43,680 nucleotides of DNA from a virus: positions 1 to 43,680 of IMG/VR virus record IMGVR_UViG_3300034200_001984, one strand, 5' to 3'. The position numbers and the translations under genes were made by a program. Within the stretch, counting starts at the first letter, position 1, and each line of letters begins with the position of its first letter. The notes beneath the pieces are model-generated. The model was not told where the DNA came from. It ran no database searches and saw only the letters and a program-made list of their open reading frames with translations. Of the stretch, positions 11,694 to 18,190 are shown piece after piece.

Positions 11694-12377
11694 TTAATTT
11701 ATTAGTTTATTGTTTTTCCAAGATTGTAGCGTATATTTGAAAGGTTGTCCAGAAATATTTTCTACTAAATTCAGCATTTGTTCAGCTATTTCTCTAATTT
11801 CTAATTGAGCGTGTTCGCTATTTCTAAGTTTTTGAAAATTTGCAAAGCTCCTCATGTTGAACATAATATCTGCTTGAATTTGAGAATTATAGGTTTTAAA
11901 AAATCTAGCTGACTCTTTTGCTCTTTTTCTTCCAAGGTTTGGTTCTAAGTCTTTGATGCATTGATGATAAAGAGTGTTTCCAAGTTCAGTATAGTCTTTA
12001 AGGATATTCACCCAACTATCTTCCATTACCCCTAAGATATTTTCTTCTGGATTAAAAGATGATTTTATATCTTCCCAATCTAAAGGAATATAATACTTGT
12101 CTTCTTTTAATTCTTTATACCTTGCAGATTCAGCATTAATACTTGATAATCTATGCTTCAGTAAATGTATATGAGATGCAATATCACAGTTTATGAGAAA
12201 ATGAATAGACGATTTTTCAAAGCAAGTATGGTGTCCTTCAGACCACAGTGTATTAATCATTTTATCGATTCTGTTTCTTTTTTCCTCAGTCAAAGTTCTG
12301 CTTGTCGATGTCCACGCTGAACATGCAATAATCTCGTCGCTACCATAATATCCAATTAATTCTACTTTGTTATTCAT
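11694..12377 (-). CDS. thyX: Flavin-dependent thymidylate synthase ThyX
   Basis: 227 residues. Converts dUMP to dTMP with FAD, NADPH and methylene-tetrahydrofolate, feeding phage DNA synthesis. The ThyX signature is at 74-87 (KHRLSSINAESARY: H75, R76, S84, R86), and SEGHHTCFEKSSIHFLI precedes it as in the family. The C-terminal QIQADIMFNMRSFANF carries further conserved Arg and Asn. Length is normal. Its ATG overlaps the stop of an HNH endonuclease gene (ATGA). A second, truncated copy of its first 17 codons lies upstream of that endonuclease gene. The codon-level differences between copies are described in the findings. Confidence 0.93.
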   Translation of the reverse strand: MNNKVELIGYYGSDEIIACSAWTSTSRTLTEEKRNRIDKMINTLWSEGHHTCFEKSSIHFLINCDIASHIHLLKHRLSSINAESARYKELKEDKYYIPLDWEDIKSSFNPEENILGVMEDSWVNILKDYTELGNTLYHQCIKDLEPNLGRKRAKESARFFKTYNSQIQADIMFNMRSFANFQKLRNSEHAQLEIREIAEQMLNLVENISGQPFKYTLQSWKNNKLIN

Positions 12378-13108
12378 GATTGATCTGTATAGTATTTTTG
12401 TTTTAGTTCTTCTATTGTAATTTCACTACTTGAATTTTTTTGCAAGTTTTGTTTAGCGGGAATGTATCTAAGATTGTGATAAGACGAAACAATTTCAACT
12501 TCAATATTATTATTAAATGCTTCCGATATTGAAAGAATATGATCTAAATGATGTCCTTCATTTTTAGTACCTTTAATTAATTTTTTATATTTTCTTGCAT
12601 TTCTATGACTTAGTGATCTTACATCGTATTGATATTTCTCCCATTCATTCAGTCTATTATAGTCAATTTTTCTTAACTTTGCGAACCACTCCGGATTGTC
12701 TGCACATGAAGAAAGCCATTTTGGTGGCAGGTTTTCATATCTTTTAAGATTGGTCTCGCGTATTTTATTTTTTGTATCCTCGCTATGATTATATGATCCA
12801 ATGGGTCTATTATTACCTCTCTTTGCAGCAGCAGCTTTGTAGTTTAGAATCTGTTCATCAGTTCTTTTTCTGCCTGTGTTAGTTCTTGATATTTTTTCCC
12901 TGTACTCATCTGTAATATAGGATTTATCTTTTTTAAAATTGAGTGGAATATTATGTTTATTCGCAATGTAGTAAACTCTTCTAGCTTTATTATCTCTCAG
13001 TAAATTATATTTTATCGCTAACTCTTTCGGTGTAAAATTTCCAGATGAAGCGTCAATTTTAAATTCTTCTAAATTAATGTTTATTTTTTCGTATTGTTGT
13101 TTACTCAT
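12374..13108 (-). CDS. Free-standing HNH homing endonuclease
   Basis: 244 residues. The C-terminal third holds GHHLDHILSISEAFNN and NLRYIPAKQNLQKN, an HNH catalytic pattern (H-H..D-H, then N-L, then N). The N-terminal half has helix-turn-helix-like FTPKELAIKYNL and a NUMOD-like basic segment (SRTNTGRKRTDEQILNYKAAAAKRG), as in phage homing enzymes that bind long DNA sites. It sits between a truncated thyX 5' end and an intact thyX, overlapping the latter by four bases. A TATAAATA box (13114-13121) just upstream resembles a T4-type late promoter, which several T4 homing genes use. Confidence 0.85.
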   Translation of the reverse strand: MSKQQYEKININLEEFKIDASSGNFTPKELAIKYNLLRDNKARRVYYIANKHNIPLNFKKDKSYITDEYREKISRTNTGRKRTDEQILNYKAAAAKRGNNRPIGSYNHSEDTKNKIRETNLKRYENLPPKWLSSCADNPEWFAKLRKIDYNRLNEWEKYQYDVRSLSHRNARKYKKLIKGTKNEGHHLDHILSISEAFNNNIEVEIVSSYHNLRYIPAKQNLQKNSSSEITIEELKQKYYTDQS

Positions 13109-13113
13109 AATAT

Positions 13114-13121
13114 TATTTATA
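13114..13121 (-). promoter_or_regulatory. Late-promoter-like TATAAATA box
   Basis: On the minus strand TATAAATA lies 6 bases before the HNH ATG. It equals the T4 late-promoter core. Similar (G)ATAAATA boxes precede both LAGLIDADG genes, which hints at shared timing. The distance to the start is short. Confidence 0.35.
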
Positions 13122-13144
13122 CTAAAAAGTGAACAAATTCTTTT

Positions 13145-13213
13145 TCAAACTAAAAATTTATTAATTTCATCACTGCCATAATAACCCAATAATTCTACTG
13201 TGTTTTTAATCAT
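13145..13213 (-). pseudogene. thyX: Truncated 5' end of thyX (first 17 codons)
   Basis: The ATG at 13213 opens a 22-codon frame, MIKNTVELLGYYGSDEI followed by NKFLV and a stop. Residues 1-17 match the start of the intact ThyX (MNNKVELIGYYGSDEI), then identity ends abruptly. Over the shared VEL.GYYGSDEI stretch most Gly, Ser, Asp and Glu codons differ at the third base between the copies. This is a scar of insertion by the HNH gene, with the downstream copy supplying a recoded, complete gene. Confidence 0.85.
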
Positions 13214-15184: not shown

Positions 15185-16171
15185 ATGAGAAAGAAAAGAA
15201 AAATTATATCAGAAGAAGAGAAATCTTTAGCAGTTGAAATGTATTTAAAGGATGGTTTATCTACAAGAAAAATAGGAAAAATTTTTAATGTTGATCGAAG
15301 CGTTGTGGAAAGAGCCATCGTAAAAAGCGGAAATTCTATGAGAACGAGTAAAGAATGTCATTTAAAGTTAACAAAAAATGAAGATTTGGAAATATACAAA
15401 ATGTATTATGAAAAATATACTCCAGAAGAAATAGGAAAAAAATTCAATGTTTCAGATAATACAATAAGATACAGTATAAAAAGACAAGGAGGAGAGTTAA
15501 GAAATTTCACACAAAGTATTACAAAATATAATTTTAATCATGATTTTTTTGAAAAAATAGATACAGAGGCAAAGGCTTATTTTTTAGGATTTTGGTTAGC
15601 TGATGGAAACGTTTGGAATAACAAAGTTCAAATGTCATTACATCCTAAAGATTCTTATATAATGGAAAGTTTTGTAAAGCATATTGATGGGAATAATGTA
15701 ATACATTTTTATAAATACAAACGAGACTCTTCAAGACTTTCAATAACATCCAAAAAGATGGTAGATGATCTTATAGATAAGGGAATTGTGCCGAATAAAA
15801 CATTTGAATTAAATAAAATGCCCGATATACAAGATAACTTAGAAAAACACTTTTGGAGAGGAGTATTAGACGGCGATGGTTGGGTATTAAATACGCAAAA
15901 AAATAAAATGATAGAAACTGGAATTTGCAATAAACAAAAAATTGCGATGGAATATTTTAAGAAATTTTTAGAAAAAAATAATATTTCTCCATGTAAAATA
16001 CAATATGCTAATAAATCGGTCTATAGGATATGGCTAACTGCCCGTAGAGCAATAAAATTTTTAAATTTAATTTATGAAGGATCTTCGCCTGATCTTAGAT
16101 TAAAAAGAAAGTATAATAACTATATTAAAGCAAAAAAATATAGAATTAAAAATAATTTACCGTCTTTTTAA
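15185..16171 (+). CDS. LAGLIDADG homing endonuclease with N-terminal HTH modules
   Basis: 328 residues. The N-terminal ~110 contain two helix-turn-helix units: DGLSTRKIGKIFNVDRSVVE and YTPEEIGKKFNVSDNTI. The nuclease core follows with two LAGLIDADG-type helices, AYFLGFWLADGNVW (about 134-147) and FWRGVLDGDGWV, whose acidic residues (LADG, LDGDG) bind catalytic metals. Two motifs in one chain suggest a monomeric enzyme. It stands alone on the plus strand against the surrounding minus-strand run, as expected for a mobile insertion, and no intron or intein signs flank it. Its target site is likely nearby, in an allele lacking it. Confidence 0.88.
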   Translation: MRKKRKIISEEEKSLAVEMYLKDGLSTRKIGKIFNVDRSVVERAIVKSGNSMRTSKECHLKLTKNEDLEIYKMYYEKYTPEEIGKKFNVSDNTIRYSIKRQGGELRNFTQSITKYNFNHDFFEKIDTEAKAYFLGFWLADGNVWNNKVQMSLHPKDSYIMESFVKHIDGNNVIHFYKYKRDSSRLSITSKKMVDDLIDKGIVPNKTFELNKMPDIQDNLEKHFWRGVLDGDGWVLNTQKNKMIETGICNKQKIAMEYFKKFLEKNNISPCKIQYANKSVYRIWLTARRAIKFLNLIYEGSSPDLRLKRKYNNYIKAKKYRIKNNLPSF

Positions 16172-16183
16172 GAGTTGGCATTT

Positions 16184-16548
16184 TCATTTTTCCTCGTAAA
16201 TTTTCCATTGTGGTTTCTTGTAACCATTGATCATATAGATGTGTTGGTTCTTATCCCAATCATTATTCCAGAATTTTTTAACAATGTCAAGATATTCTTT
16301 TGCTTCTGACTTTGTAGAAAAATATTTAATTGGAGTTGGTTTATACAATAACTTTGAAAATTCTTCTTGACAAATCGGTACAGTGGTTGTCCATCCATCA
16401 AGAGGACTTTTGCTGCCTTCATTGACATAAGTGTATTCATCTGGTTTATGATTGTATTCGCAGACTTTGTATTTTTTTGTTCTTTATTAAAAATTCTAAA
16501 TAAACCGCCTACTATTACAATACTAACAATTTTTTGTTTGAGTGTCAT
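16184..16548 (-). CDS. Membrane-anchored hypothetical, frameshifted at A7
   Basis: The N-terminus from ATG 16548 (MTLKQKIVSIVIVGGLFRIF) is a membrane anchor or signal. At an A7 run near 16482 the zero frame turns into low-quality sequence. The -1 frame continues as VCEYNHKPDEYTYVNEGS, EAKEYLDIVKKFWNNDWD and GYKKPQWKIYEEK, to a TGA at 16184. That composition is clearly coding, so the natural product is ~121 residues. The run needs one extra A, or ribosomal or transcriptional slippage. No family recognised for the soluble domain. Confidence 0.6.
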
Positions 16549-16549
16549 T

Positions 16550-16852
16550 TTATTCCTCCCATTTTTCGAGCGTTTTTAAGAATGCCTTGGCACGGTTCCA
16601 TGCCGAGGCATGGACTGATACGAAGCGAACAGTTCCACCTCCATACTCCGCAAGATATTGACAGTATCGCGTCCAGTCTCCGCTCCTCATTTGCTTCTCC
16701 GCTCCGTGCATGGCGTTGAGGTCATTGCAGTAGTCTGGAATTTTGTCCTTGTATTGCCAATCACCATTGGGTGGTTTTGCTAAGTATTTATGTTTATTAA
16801 CCTGCCATCCACACGCCTCCGCAATTGCGATGTTGATTTGTTCGTTTGTCAT
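16550..16852 (-). CDS. Phage ABA-sandwich domain protein
   Basis: 100 residues starting MTNEQINIAIAEACGW, with DYCNDLNAMHGAEK and AKAFLKTLEKWEE at the end, the pattern of the phage ABA-sandwich family (small, function unknown). A paralogue begins with the same residues at 24700. DNA here is clearly richer in G+C than the surroundings (GCGCGG, CGCGTCC), which suggests separate acquisition together with the two coiled-coil genes upstream of it. Its ATG overlaps the stop of the upstream coiled-coil gene. Confidence 0.8.
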   Translation of the reverse strand: MTNEQINIAIAEACGWQVNKHKYLAKPPNGDWQYKDKIPDYCNDLNAMHGAEKQMRSGDWTRYCQYLAEYGGGTVRFVSVHASAWNRAKAFLKTLEKWEE

Positions 16853-17154
16853 TTCGCTTCCTCCTTGATTTGGTCGAGTTCGGCGCGGAGCCTTAATCCT
16901 TCTTCTTTAATTGCTCGGATTGCCCGGACTGCACTTGCATCTGGCAAGCAAACTCCGGCCAGCACGCAAACCCAAACCGCTTTTTCCGCGATCTCGCGTA
17001 GCTTGGCGTTTTGCTCCAGCGCCTTGTCGCGCTCGCTCGACAATCTATTTAGTTCATCTGTAATATCTTGTAAATCTCCAACATCTCCCTTGTTGTTTGG
17101 TTTGTTAATCCATCTGTCCTTGAACTGATCATTAACTAATTTGTATTTACTCAT
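16849..17154 (-). CDS. Coiled-coil hypothetical protein (GC-rich cassette)
   Basis: 101 residues: a short basic start, then a long heptad helix (LQDITDELNRLSSERDKALE and on), a hydrophobic CVLAGVCLPDASAVRAIRAI break, and a second coil ending LRAELDQIKEEAK. The same architecture appears in the next gene upstream. It is part of the GC-richer block. Neighbour overlaps are ATGA. Likely an oligomeric scaffold. No family named. Confidence 0.65.
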   Translation of the reverse strand: MSKYKLVNDQFKDRWINKPNNKGDVGDLQDITDELNRLSSERDKALEQNAKLREIAEKAVWVCVLAGVCLPDASAVRAIRAIKEEGLRLRAELDQIKEEAK

Positions 17155-17170
17155 TTCGCGCCCTCCTTGA
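17151..17170. repeat. 20-bp gene-junction repeat, copy A
   Basis: TCATTTCGCGCCCTCCTTGA recurs exactly at 17571-17590, and in a diverged form at 16849-16868. On the minus strand it holds the end of one gene (KEGAK, TGA) fused to the next ATG, plus the ribosome site AAGGAGGGCG. It could serve as homology for gene exchange. Confidence 0.85.
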
Positions 17171-17574
17171 GTTGGTCGAGTTCGGCGCGGAGGATACTAT
17201 CCTCGACTGAGGTTCGTAATCGCCCTTGCCGAATTTCTGGGGGGGATTAATTTAATCGCCCTCTCTGCGATGTCGCGTAGCTTGGCGTTCTCTTTTTCTA
17301 GTTTACCTACATGTAATGCGGAGCAAAGTAATTGTCCGGAGATGCCTACGATTCGCCCACTCGCCTCAACTAATTCATCTAATGTTTTGTCGAGTTCCTC
17401 CTTTTCTTTAAGATACTTCTCCCTCTCCTCGTCGCGCTCGCGTTTTAAAACTAACAGCTCGCCCCGAATAACAGCAATTTCTGAAAGAGACAAAATACGC
17501 CAGTCTTTGTGTGCATTGTGTTTGTGTAGCCACTCTGCTCTACGTTTAGCTTCTGCTTCATCTGTCTCACTCAT
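17151..17574 (-). CDS. Coiled-coil paralogue with G7 frameshift in its tail
   Basis: From ATG 17574 the frame encodes a long heptad coil (REKYLKEKEELDKTLDELVE) and LREIAER-like RDIAERAIKLIPP, then stops at 17197. In the +1 frame after a G7 run at about 17239-17245 the sequence continues with SVEDSILRAELDQLKEGAK and a TGA overlapping the next ATG. This matches the end of the neighbouring paralogue. With six G instead of seven the gene reads through perfectly, so the shift is recent or an assembly error. The restored product is about 140 residues. Confidence 0.65.
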
Positions 17575-17590
17575 TTCGCGCCCTCCTTGA
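17571..17590. repeat. 20-bp gene-junction repeat, copy B
   Basis: Exact second copy of the repeat at 17151-17170. Here it is joined to the first codons of an ABA-sandwich gene rather than to a coiled-coil gene. Confidence 0.85.
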
Positions 17591-17606
17591 TTTGTTCGTT
17601 TGTCAT
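17571..17606 (-). CDS. 11-codon chimeric leader ORF (MTNEQI + KEGAK)
   Basis: ATG at 17606 encodes MTNEQIKEGAK and stops on the ATG of the coiled-coil gene. The first six residues equal the start of the ABA-sandwich genes. The rest equals the end of the coiled-coil genes. It is best read as the remnant of an in-frame deletion that fused two genes. It has its own promoter (17614-17642) and may now be a translational leader. Confidence 0.6.
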   Translation of the reverse strand: MTNEQIKEGAK

Positions 17607-17613
17607 AGTTTAG

Positions 17614-17642
17614 ATATTAGAGAATGTTTGATGAAATGTCAA
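17614..17642 (-). promoter_or_regulatory. Sigma70-type promoter
   Basis: TTGACA, 17-base spacer, TAATAT on the minus strand, 8 bases before the chimeric leader ORF and coiled-coil cassette. The downstream TAATATCTAAAC stretch matches the promoter at 24708. Confidence 0.8.
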
Positions 17643-17841
17643 GATTTTTCTTAGCAAAAGCCATAGTAGAACCATCAGAATGTTTTACTAAAAATTTTCC
17701 GTTCTTGCATTGCTTCTGTACAGTACAAACTTGCCCGATATATTTTCTATACTCCTTCGTCATATATAAATCATTATTTCGATTAACAATAACGTCTTGT
17801 TGTTCTGTAATAATTTTTTCCATTTTGCTTATCTGATCCAA
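17617..17841 (-). CDS. Hypothetical protein, SH3-like
   Basis: 74 residues (or 68 from the second Met). The end, YIGQVCTVQKQCKNGKFLVK followed by HSDGSTMAFAKKNL, looks like a small SH3/KOW-type barrel. A promoter (17901-17929) lies upstream, and its own 3' end contains the promoter of the next unit. Family unknown. Confidence 0.5.
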   Translation of the reverse strand: MDQISKMEKIITEQQDVIVNRNNDLYMTKEYRKYIGQVCTVQKQCKNGKFLVKHSDGSTMAFAKKNLDISSNIL

Positions 17842-17900
17842 TCAGAAATATCCCAATAACTTTCGAAACCTATAAGATATTTTCCTCTGTTCCAAAATTG

Positions 17901-17929
17901 ATATTAAATTAAGTTGGTGGAACTGTCAA
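17901..17929 (-). promoter_or_regulatory. Sigma70-type promoter
   Basis: TTGACA, 17 bases, TAATAT on the minus strand. It lies about 60 bases before the 74-residue gene. The space between holds a start-less coding remnant (GKYLIGFESYWDISDWIR). Confidence 0.75.
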
Positions 17930-17938
17930 TCTTTATTT

Positions 17939-18190
17939 TTAACCAGCGTCAAAAAATTTATTTCTCTCACCATTCATAACTCCATCTGCATACTCTGTTT
18001 CTTTGATAGGAATACCATCTACAGAAAACTTAGGTCTAAAATCACCATCACCATCTGAATAAAATGTAACTTTTCTTGAACCACCCAAACCTCCAAGTTG
18101 TTCCATATATTTTAACATTCCAAGAAATTGAGGAACCCAACGTTCTCTCATTGTGCAAGTTATAGTGAATGTTGTTTTTGGAGATTTCAT
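17939..18190 (-). CDS. Conserved phage hypothetical (small, Gly-rich)
   Basis: 83 residues. ERWVPQFLGMLKYMEQLGGL and SRKVTFYSDGDGDFRPKF are strongly patterned and occur in small phage proteins I have seen across unrelated phages. Function unknown. Overlaps the YopX-like gene before it by four bases, and precedes a promoter. Confidence 0.68.
   Translation of the reverse strand: MKSPKTTFTITCTMRERWVPQFLGMLKYMEQLGGLGGSRKVTFYSDGDGDFRPKFSVDGIPIKETEYADGVMNGERNKFFDAG

Follow-up and report, generated by a model that had tools for sequence, protein, structure and literature searches.

The window analysed here is a virus record of 43,680 bases, numbered from its first letter, and the unit of interest is read on its minus strand. 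The unit is preceded by a native thyX 5' stub of codons 1-17 (MIKNTVELLGYYGSDEI; 13163-13213), recognized by ORF and codon comparison, whose reading frame (13213-13145) continues as NKFLV and ends with a stop at 13145. Next come the left end or leader of the inserted unit (AATAAATTTTTAGTTTGAAAAAGAATTTGTTCACTTTTTAGTATAAATAATATT; 13109-13162), placed by DNA alignment with locus L012, which has the same outline, a gene for an HNH-type endonuclease of 244 amino acids (12374-13108), and a complete thyX (FAD-dependent thymidylate synthase, 227 amino acids; 11694-12377). This thyX matches Pfam Thy1 (8.6e-32), starts at its own ATG, spans positions 1-188 of the 191-position profile, and scores above the TIGR02170 family cut-off; its ATG overlaps the HNH stop codon by 4 nt, as ATGA. 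Comparison with other thyX loci delimits the replacement 5' end of the gene (12316-12377), with the insertion point near 12330; the right-hand limit of the imported tract is a position that we infer. By ORFs, profiles, and strand, stub, HNH gene, and complete thyX are all present where the sequence-only reading had placed them. Over the 12 codons V-E-L-x-G-Y-Y-G-S-D-E-I, stub and complete copy share 11 residues and 29 of 36 nt. Of the 11 codons that keep their residue, 5 have a different third base, among them the four consecutive G-S-D-E codons by the junction, so that the earlier description of mostly different third bases is somewhat overstated.

The endonuclease ORF carries a C-terminal HLDHI..NLRYIP..NL.K motif (the DHI..NL..N..K pattern), matches the phrog_314 homing endonuclease family weakly (2.2e-5), and matches NUMOD3 under the cut-off (0.0037); this motif and the weak family matches suggest an HNH endonuclease. 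No Pfam HNH match was returned by profile search and no match by a search of solved structures, and an AlphaFold model from two sequences (pLDDT 49) was too poor for use. Loci L012-L014 have a 58% identical ORF of this type directly upstream of thyX, with a similar leader and no stub, and they were the only further relatives found in viral_contigs by single-sequence and two-member-alignment searches; genome_contigs yielded none. The L012 thyX 5' end may be akin to that of the window, matching it in 31 of 32 nt, the best of 156 loci by a lead of only 2 nt over the others, which reach 29. A 23-nt 5' match between the same two loci was rejected as special, since four other loci tie. The last 114 amino acids of the window ORF are 39% identical to an ORF inside the split rnlA of Acinetobacter phage 133. 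At that locus (L290, 1229-3306), the relative overlaps both rnlA halves, and a duplicated gene end was sought in the split rnlA and not found.

Among the 80 loci returned by a thyX scan of viral_contigs, L001 has the best protein identity to the window thyX (77%), and its thyX body is also the closest in DNA (78% identity). L001 and L015 have a common gene neighbourhood, in which no HNH gene precedes thyX; for the window, presence and absence of the insert at one site can be compared only with these more distant loci. The window stub agrees with L001 in 32 of 36 nt, joint best among 157 thyX loci, and the replacement copy in about 27 of 36. The L015 and L001 thyX genes are equal over the first 29 nt and differ once in nt 56-205, and of the seven differences within nt 29-55, all seven match the window replacement copy; for seven of nine differences to fall in 27 of 464 nt, p is about 7e-8 under uniform scatter. 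Window positions 12350-12316 are identical to L015 over 35 nt. The window stub lacks the bases shared with L015, which argues that those bases entered with the insert.

The replacement codons might instead be an ordinary thyX allele that recombined with L015, the HNH gene being irrelevant, as the occurrence of the 35-nt stretch in a phage without that gene would allow. We consider this improbable, because the L015 patch (27-35 nt) is located at the insertion point, with sharp edges against otherwise L001-like surroundings. Moreover, an exact scan for the 35 nt found the contig of L015 alone, a relaxed 23-base core pattern added one locus (L083), and the closest other 35-mer in 156 loci agreed at 31 of 35. 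Nor does the patch occur within long shared tracts of HNH-less phages in viral_contigs. The sequence-only reading had held that the same codons in relatives without the HNH gene would count against it. L015 has such codons, yet as a 27-nt patch near the insertion point with L001-like sequence around it, for which homing (conversion) or an excision footprint appears to be a better fit than an ancestral state. Most likely, the patch was acquired from an element-bearing phage, or the element was lost when stub and replacement recombined.

The 5' end of the complete gene had been described as recoded; our comparisons point to an imported end instead. Over 30 nt, stubs and replacements share 24, 24, 21, 21, 19, and 19 identical positions, and random thyX pairs share 22.2 +/- 2.5, so that they differ as two natural alleles would; in some replacements residues change too (GSDE to GDDT). 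True recoding, by which synonymous changes were selected in place after insertion to stop self-cleavage, would account for the changed third bases in the four adjacent G-S-D-E codons of the window and for the T after GxD in every SANT-type unit. In replacements beside SANT-like HNH genes, this T occurs in 4 of 4 against 10 of 146 elsewhere (p = 5e-5), the four being related and not independent, and it may reflect target resistance or simply common descent of the unit. We nevertheless regard recoding as quite unlikely, given that the divergence is no larger than between random thyX pairs, that it extends across the entire 5' end and affects N-terminal residues remote from the site, and that the 35 nt are exactly common to the window and L015.

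The displacement of a native gene end is seen most directly in a pair of loci, one with the insert (L125) and one empty (L051), whose thyX bodies are 93% shared. The L125 stub is identical to the L051 thyX start at 52 of 55 nt, whereas the functional L125 start agrees with it at just 30 of 53 nt; directly after the insertion point, 95 consecutive nt are identical. Occupied and empty versions of one site are thus available with downstream thyX alike. Because the stub matches the empty locus while the functional start diverges, the pair shows that the mobile unit in L125 carries a foreign thyX 5' end, which arrived with the endonuclease gene and displaced the native one. The pair also bears out, in a sister case, the proposal made for the window that the endonuclease gene entered thyX near codon 16-17 and that the native 5' end persists as a dead stub. 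If the insertion had duplicated the thyX 5' end in tandem (a long target-site duplication) and the upstream copy had decayed, with nothing foreign involved, a single event would give both stub and full copy, and the stubs, being non-functional, would be free to drift. However, L125 presents the reverse of stub decay, which contradicts such a duplication there, and the distance between stub and replacement equals that of unrelated thyX alleles; we judge this explanation very unlikely.

The same layout recurs in other phages. When 197 thyX loci were scored for a second, upstream copy of their own thyX N-terminus, 5 distinct loci (the window, L113, L044, L145, and L125) scored >=0.70, all with an HNH gene in between, and the next best score after these was 0.52. 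The short frame is therefore not the unrelated one that the sequence-only reading had allowed for as an objection, scores of this height occurring only with an HNH gene between. A stub-like score of 0.52 at L120/L174 lay 1.6 kb upstream, in antisense orientation relative to a predicted gene, and was set aside as chance. A scan for a second HNH lineage (alignment A3) added L206-L208, each with a stub (MQNKVELLGYYGSDE and a stop), an HNH gene, and a full thyX; L210, with a shorter stub (ATGAGTAATAAAGTAGAGCTT), an HNH gene, and thyX; and L211, L212, and L215, with an endonuclease-like gene upstream of thyX and no visible stub. L054 has a different ORF upstream of thyX, HNH-like by eye and with no Pfam match. 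Stub, HNH gene, and full thyX with a divergent 5' end are found together in at least six distinct loci in metagenomic phages, with stubs ending anywhere from codon 7 to codon 20, and in 14 of 14 measured loci the stop of the upstream ORF overlaps the thyX start by 4-25 nt. Since the count of HNH-bearing loci comes partly from targeted scans, frequencies are valid only from the thyX-based scans, by which the HNH-bearing share is estimated at about 4% of distinct loci. The ORFs of L044, L125, L206, and L210 (4 of 4) exceed the curated cut-off of Pfam HNH_3, and profile comparison found no relation between these and the window-type enzymes; two HNH lineages with no detectable relation indicate that the layout has at least two origins. 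That the HNH gene merely entered intergenic space upstream of thyX, the stub being an unrelated short frame, is barely credible, for although no stub is visible at L012, L054, L211, and L215, where an endonuclease-like gene precedes thyX, such loci are expected if the upstream gene was common to donor and recipient or the stub was lost, and among the 197 loci stubs are confined to HNH-bearing ones and match an empty sister at up to 52 of 55 nt.

Three annotated phages with thyX (MW202828, PA-SR01, and Nodularia 2AV2) have no recognisable endonuclease gene adjoining it. In L113/L209 (L209, 2426-3076), the thyX stub is fused in frame to the HNH ORF (MNNTVELLGWYGGDKEHAM, then SKRKNSW...), and the endonuclease could be driven from the stub's start codon. 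In L214 (about 2260-2330), ATGAATAAAAATACAGTAGAATTATT precedes an HNH gene and a thyX that belongs to a distant ThyX clade; it resembles a gene start from the other thyX clade and may be the foreign-clade stub that a whole-gene replacement left behind.

A host gene interrupted by an intron or intein stays functional through splicing, and free-standing endonucleases either split coding sequence or lie outside it; the thyX units represent a further phage solution, that of bringing a replacement gene end. Rfam searches of the window and the HEG-bearing loci for group I and II introns returned none at E 0.1, and the control detected group I introns in two phages with interrupted thyX. For want of any Rfam intron match, an intron or splicing explanation was rejected, in agreement with the original view that the gene is kept functional without an intron. 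The thyX genes of Alteromonas phage AD45-P1 and Vibrio phage 1.097.O (L291 and L292) are interrupted by group I introns that carry HNH genes, and in AD45-P1 also GIY-YIG, and their records annotate the thyX parts as separate thymidylate synthase genes. The HNH enzymes of these introns are distant relatives (about 30%) of the L044-type HNH, which is also in thyX, indicating that thyX has been targeted repeatedly. Their layout differs from that of the window, the HNH gene lying in a group I intron mid-thyX with no duplicated end.

The closest known parallel comes from fungal mitochondria, where mobile ORFs replace gene 3' ends (atp6 of Allomyces macrogynus; atp6, atp9, cox2, and nad3 of Glomus sp.), the native ends remain downstream and match empty relatives, and mRNA of the hybrid gene has been shown (PMC3630166). 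As in these fungi, an intron-less endonuclease ORF sits in a core gene, a foreign end is brought, the native end persists in duplicate, and the gene stays continuous; a duplicated native end beside a foreign functional one is found in L125/L051, and the likenesses of window stub and replacement to L001 follow the same pattern. The fungal ORFs, however, are LAGLIDADG or GIY-YIG and replace the 3' (C-terminal) end of mitochondrial genes, whereas the phage enzymes are HNH, the 5' end of thyX is replaced, and the endonuclease ORF overlaps the start codon of the gene. The phage units work like the Allomyces/Glomus type but are not members of it.

According to passages of PMC2988022, phage genes can be split by free-standing HNH endonucleases, as Aeh1 nrdA is by MobE and T4 gene 60 by MobA. 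Such cases share with the thyX units an HNH gene within a conserved nucleotide-metabolism or replication gene and the absence of an intron. In those cases the protein is made as two chains, whereas the downstream thyX is complete from its own ATG, a single full ORF by virtue of the imported 5' end, the native piece being a dead stub. The same passages present the T4 Seg/Mob enzymes as free-standing, cutting a neighbouring gene and co-converting its flank, mostly between intact genes. The thyX units likewise have an endonuclease gene adjoining its presumed target, with flank movement by co-conversion proposed here; unlike them, no Seg/Mob case in these passages has a target stub with a replacement end. 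The arrangement is absent from the titles and partial abstracts of literature on thyX and homing endonucleases, and no described case of phage 5' gene-end replacement was found within a limited coverage of the literature. We call the thyX units a new, phage, 5'-end variant of the fungal end-replacing endonuclease ORFs.

Comparison of the loci demonstrates the architecture, its recurrence, and, in L125/L051, the foreign origin of the 5' end and the native origin of the stub. The window unit is probably a free-standing HNH homing endonuclease gene, mobile together with part of the gene it targets, thyX. The unit overlaps and directly precedes a thyX allele whose first 16-20 codons would serve as its right arm. 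The enzyme would break an empty thyX near codons 13-20, a position that fits the variable stub ends together with the perfect right-side register in L125/L051. Homology in thyX would then guide repair of the right-hand end on the donor, so that first the donor 5' end and next the endonuclease gene would be copied. The left-hand end would be connected to the unit's distal side by a non-homologous or resected join, the recipient's first codons remaining as a dead stub after this one-sided repair. The recipient's thyX would stay intact, now with a 5' end of foreign origin, and encode a chimeric ThyX that is presumably active, and the altered target would probably no longer be cut. A point against this model is that L015 carries replacement codons with no HNH gene. 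We lean slightly towards a broader proposal, in which mobile intron-less units of a distinct class, each an endonuclease gene overlapping a replacement 5' end of its own target, land repeatedly at the start of phage thyX; homology would be needed on one side of the break only, the unit could pass among phages whose upstream genes are unrelated, and the replacement end could also move by itself, as a patch conferring resistance (L015).

The thyX units make endonuclease invasion of an essential-type gene without splicing testable, together with the origin of chimeric gene starts and N-terminal protein variation in phages, and allow one to ask whether immunity is determined by the replacement sequence itself. 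L051/L125 (empty and occupied) and L001/L015 (footprint) provide substrates ready for such tests. About 2 kb from the thyX unit, the window carries a second endonuclease gene (15185-16171, plus strand; HTH and LAGLIDADG; phrog_4645 endonuclease, 7.5e-52) on the strand opposite to its neighbours. G+C is 0.386 over 16001-18000 compared with about 0.30 in the preceding 4 kb, possibly reflecting a recent acquisition.
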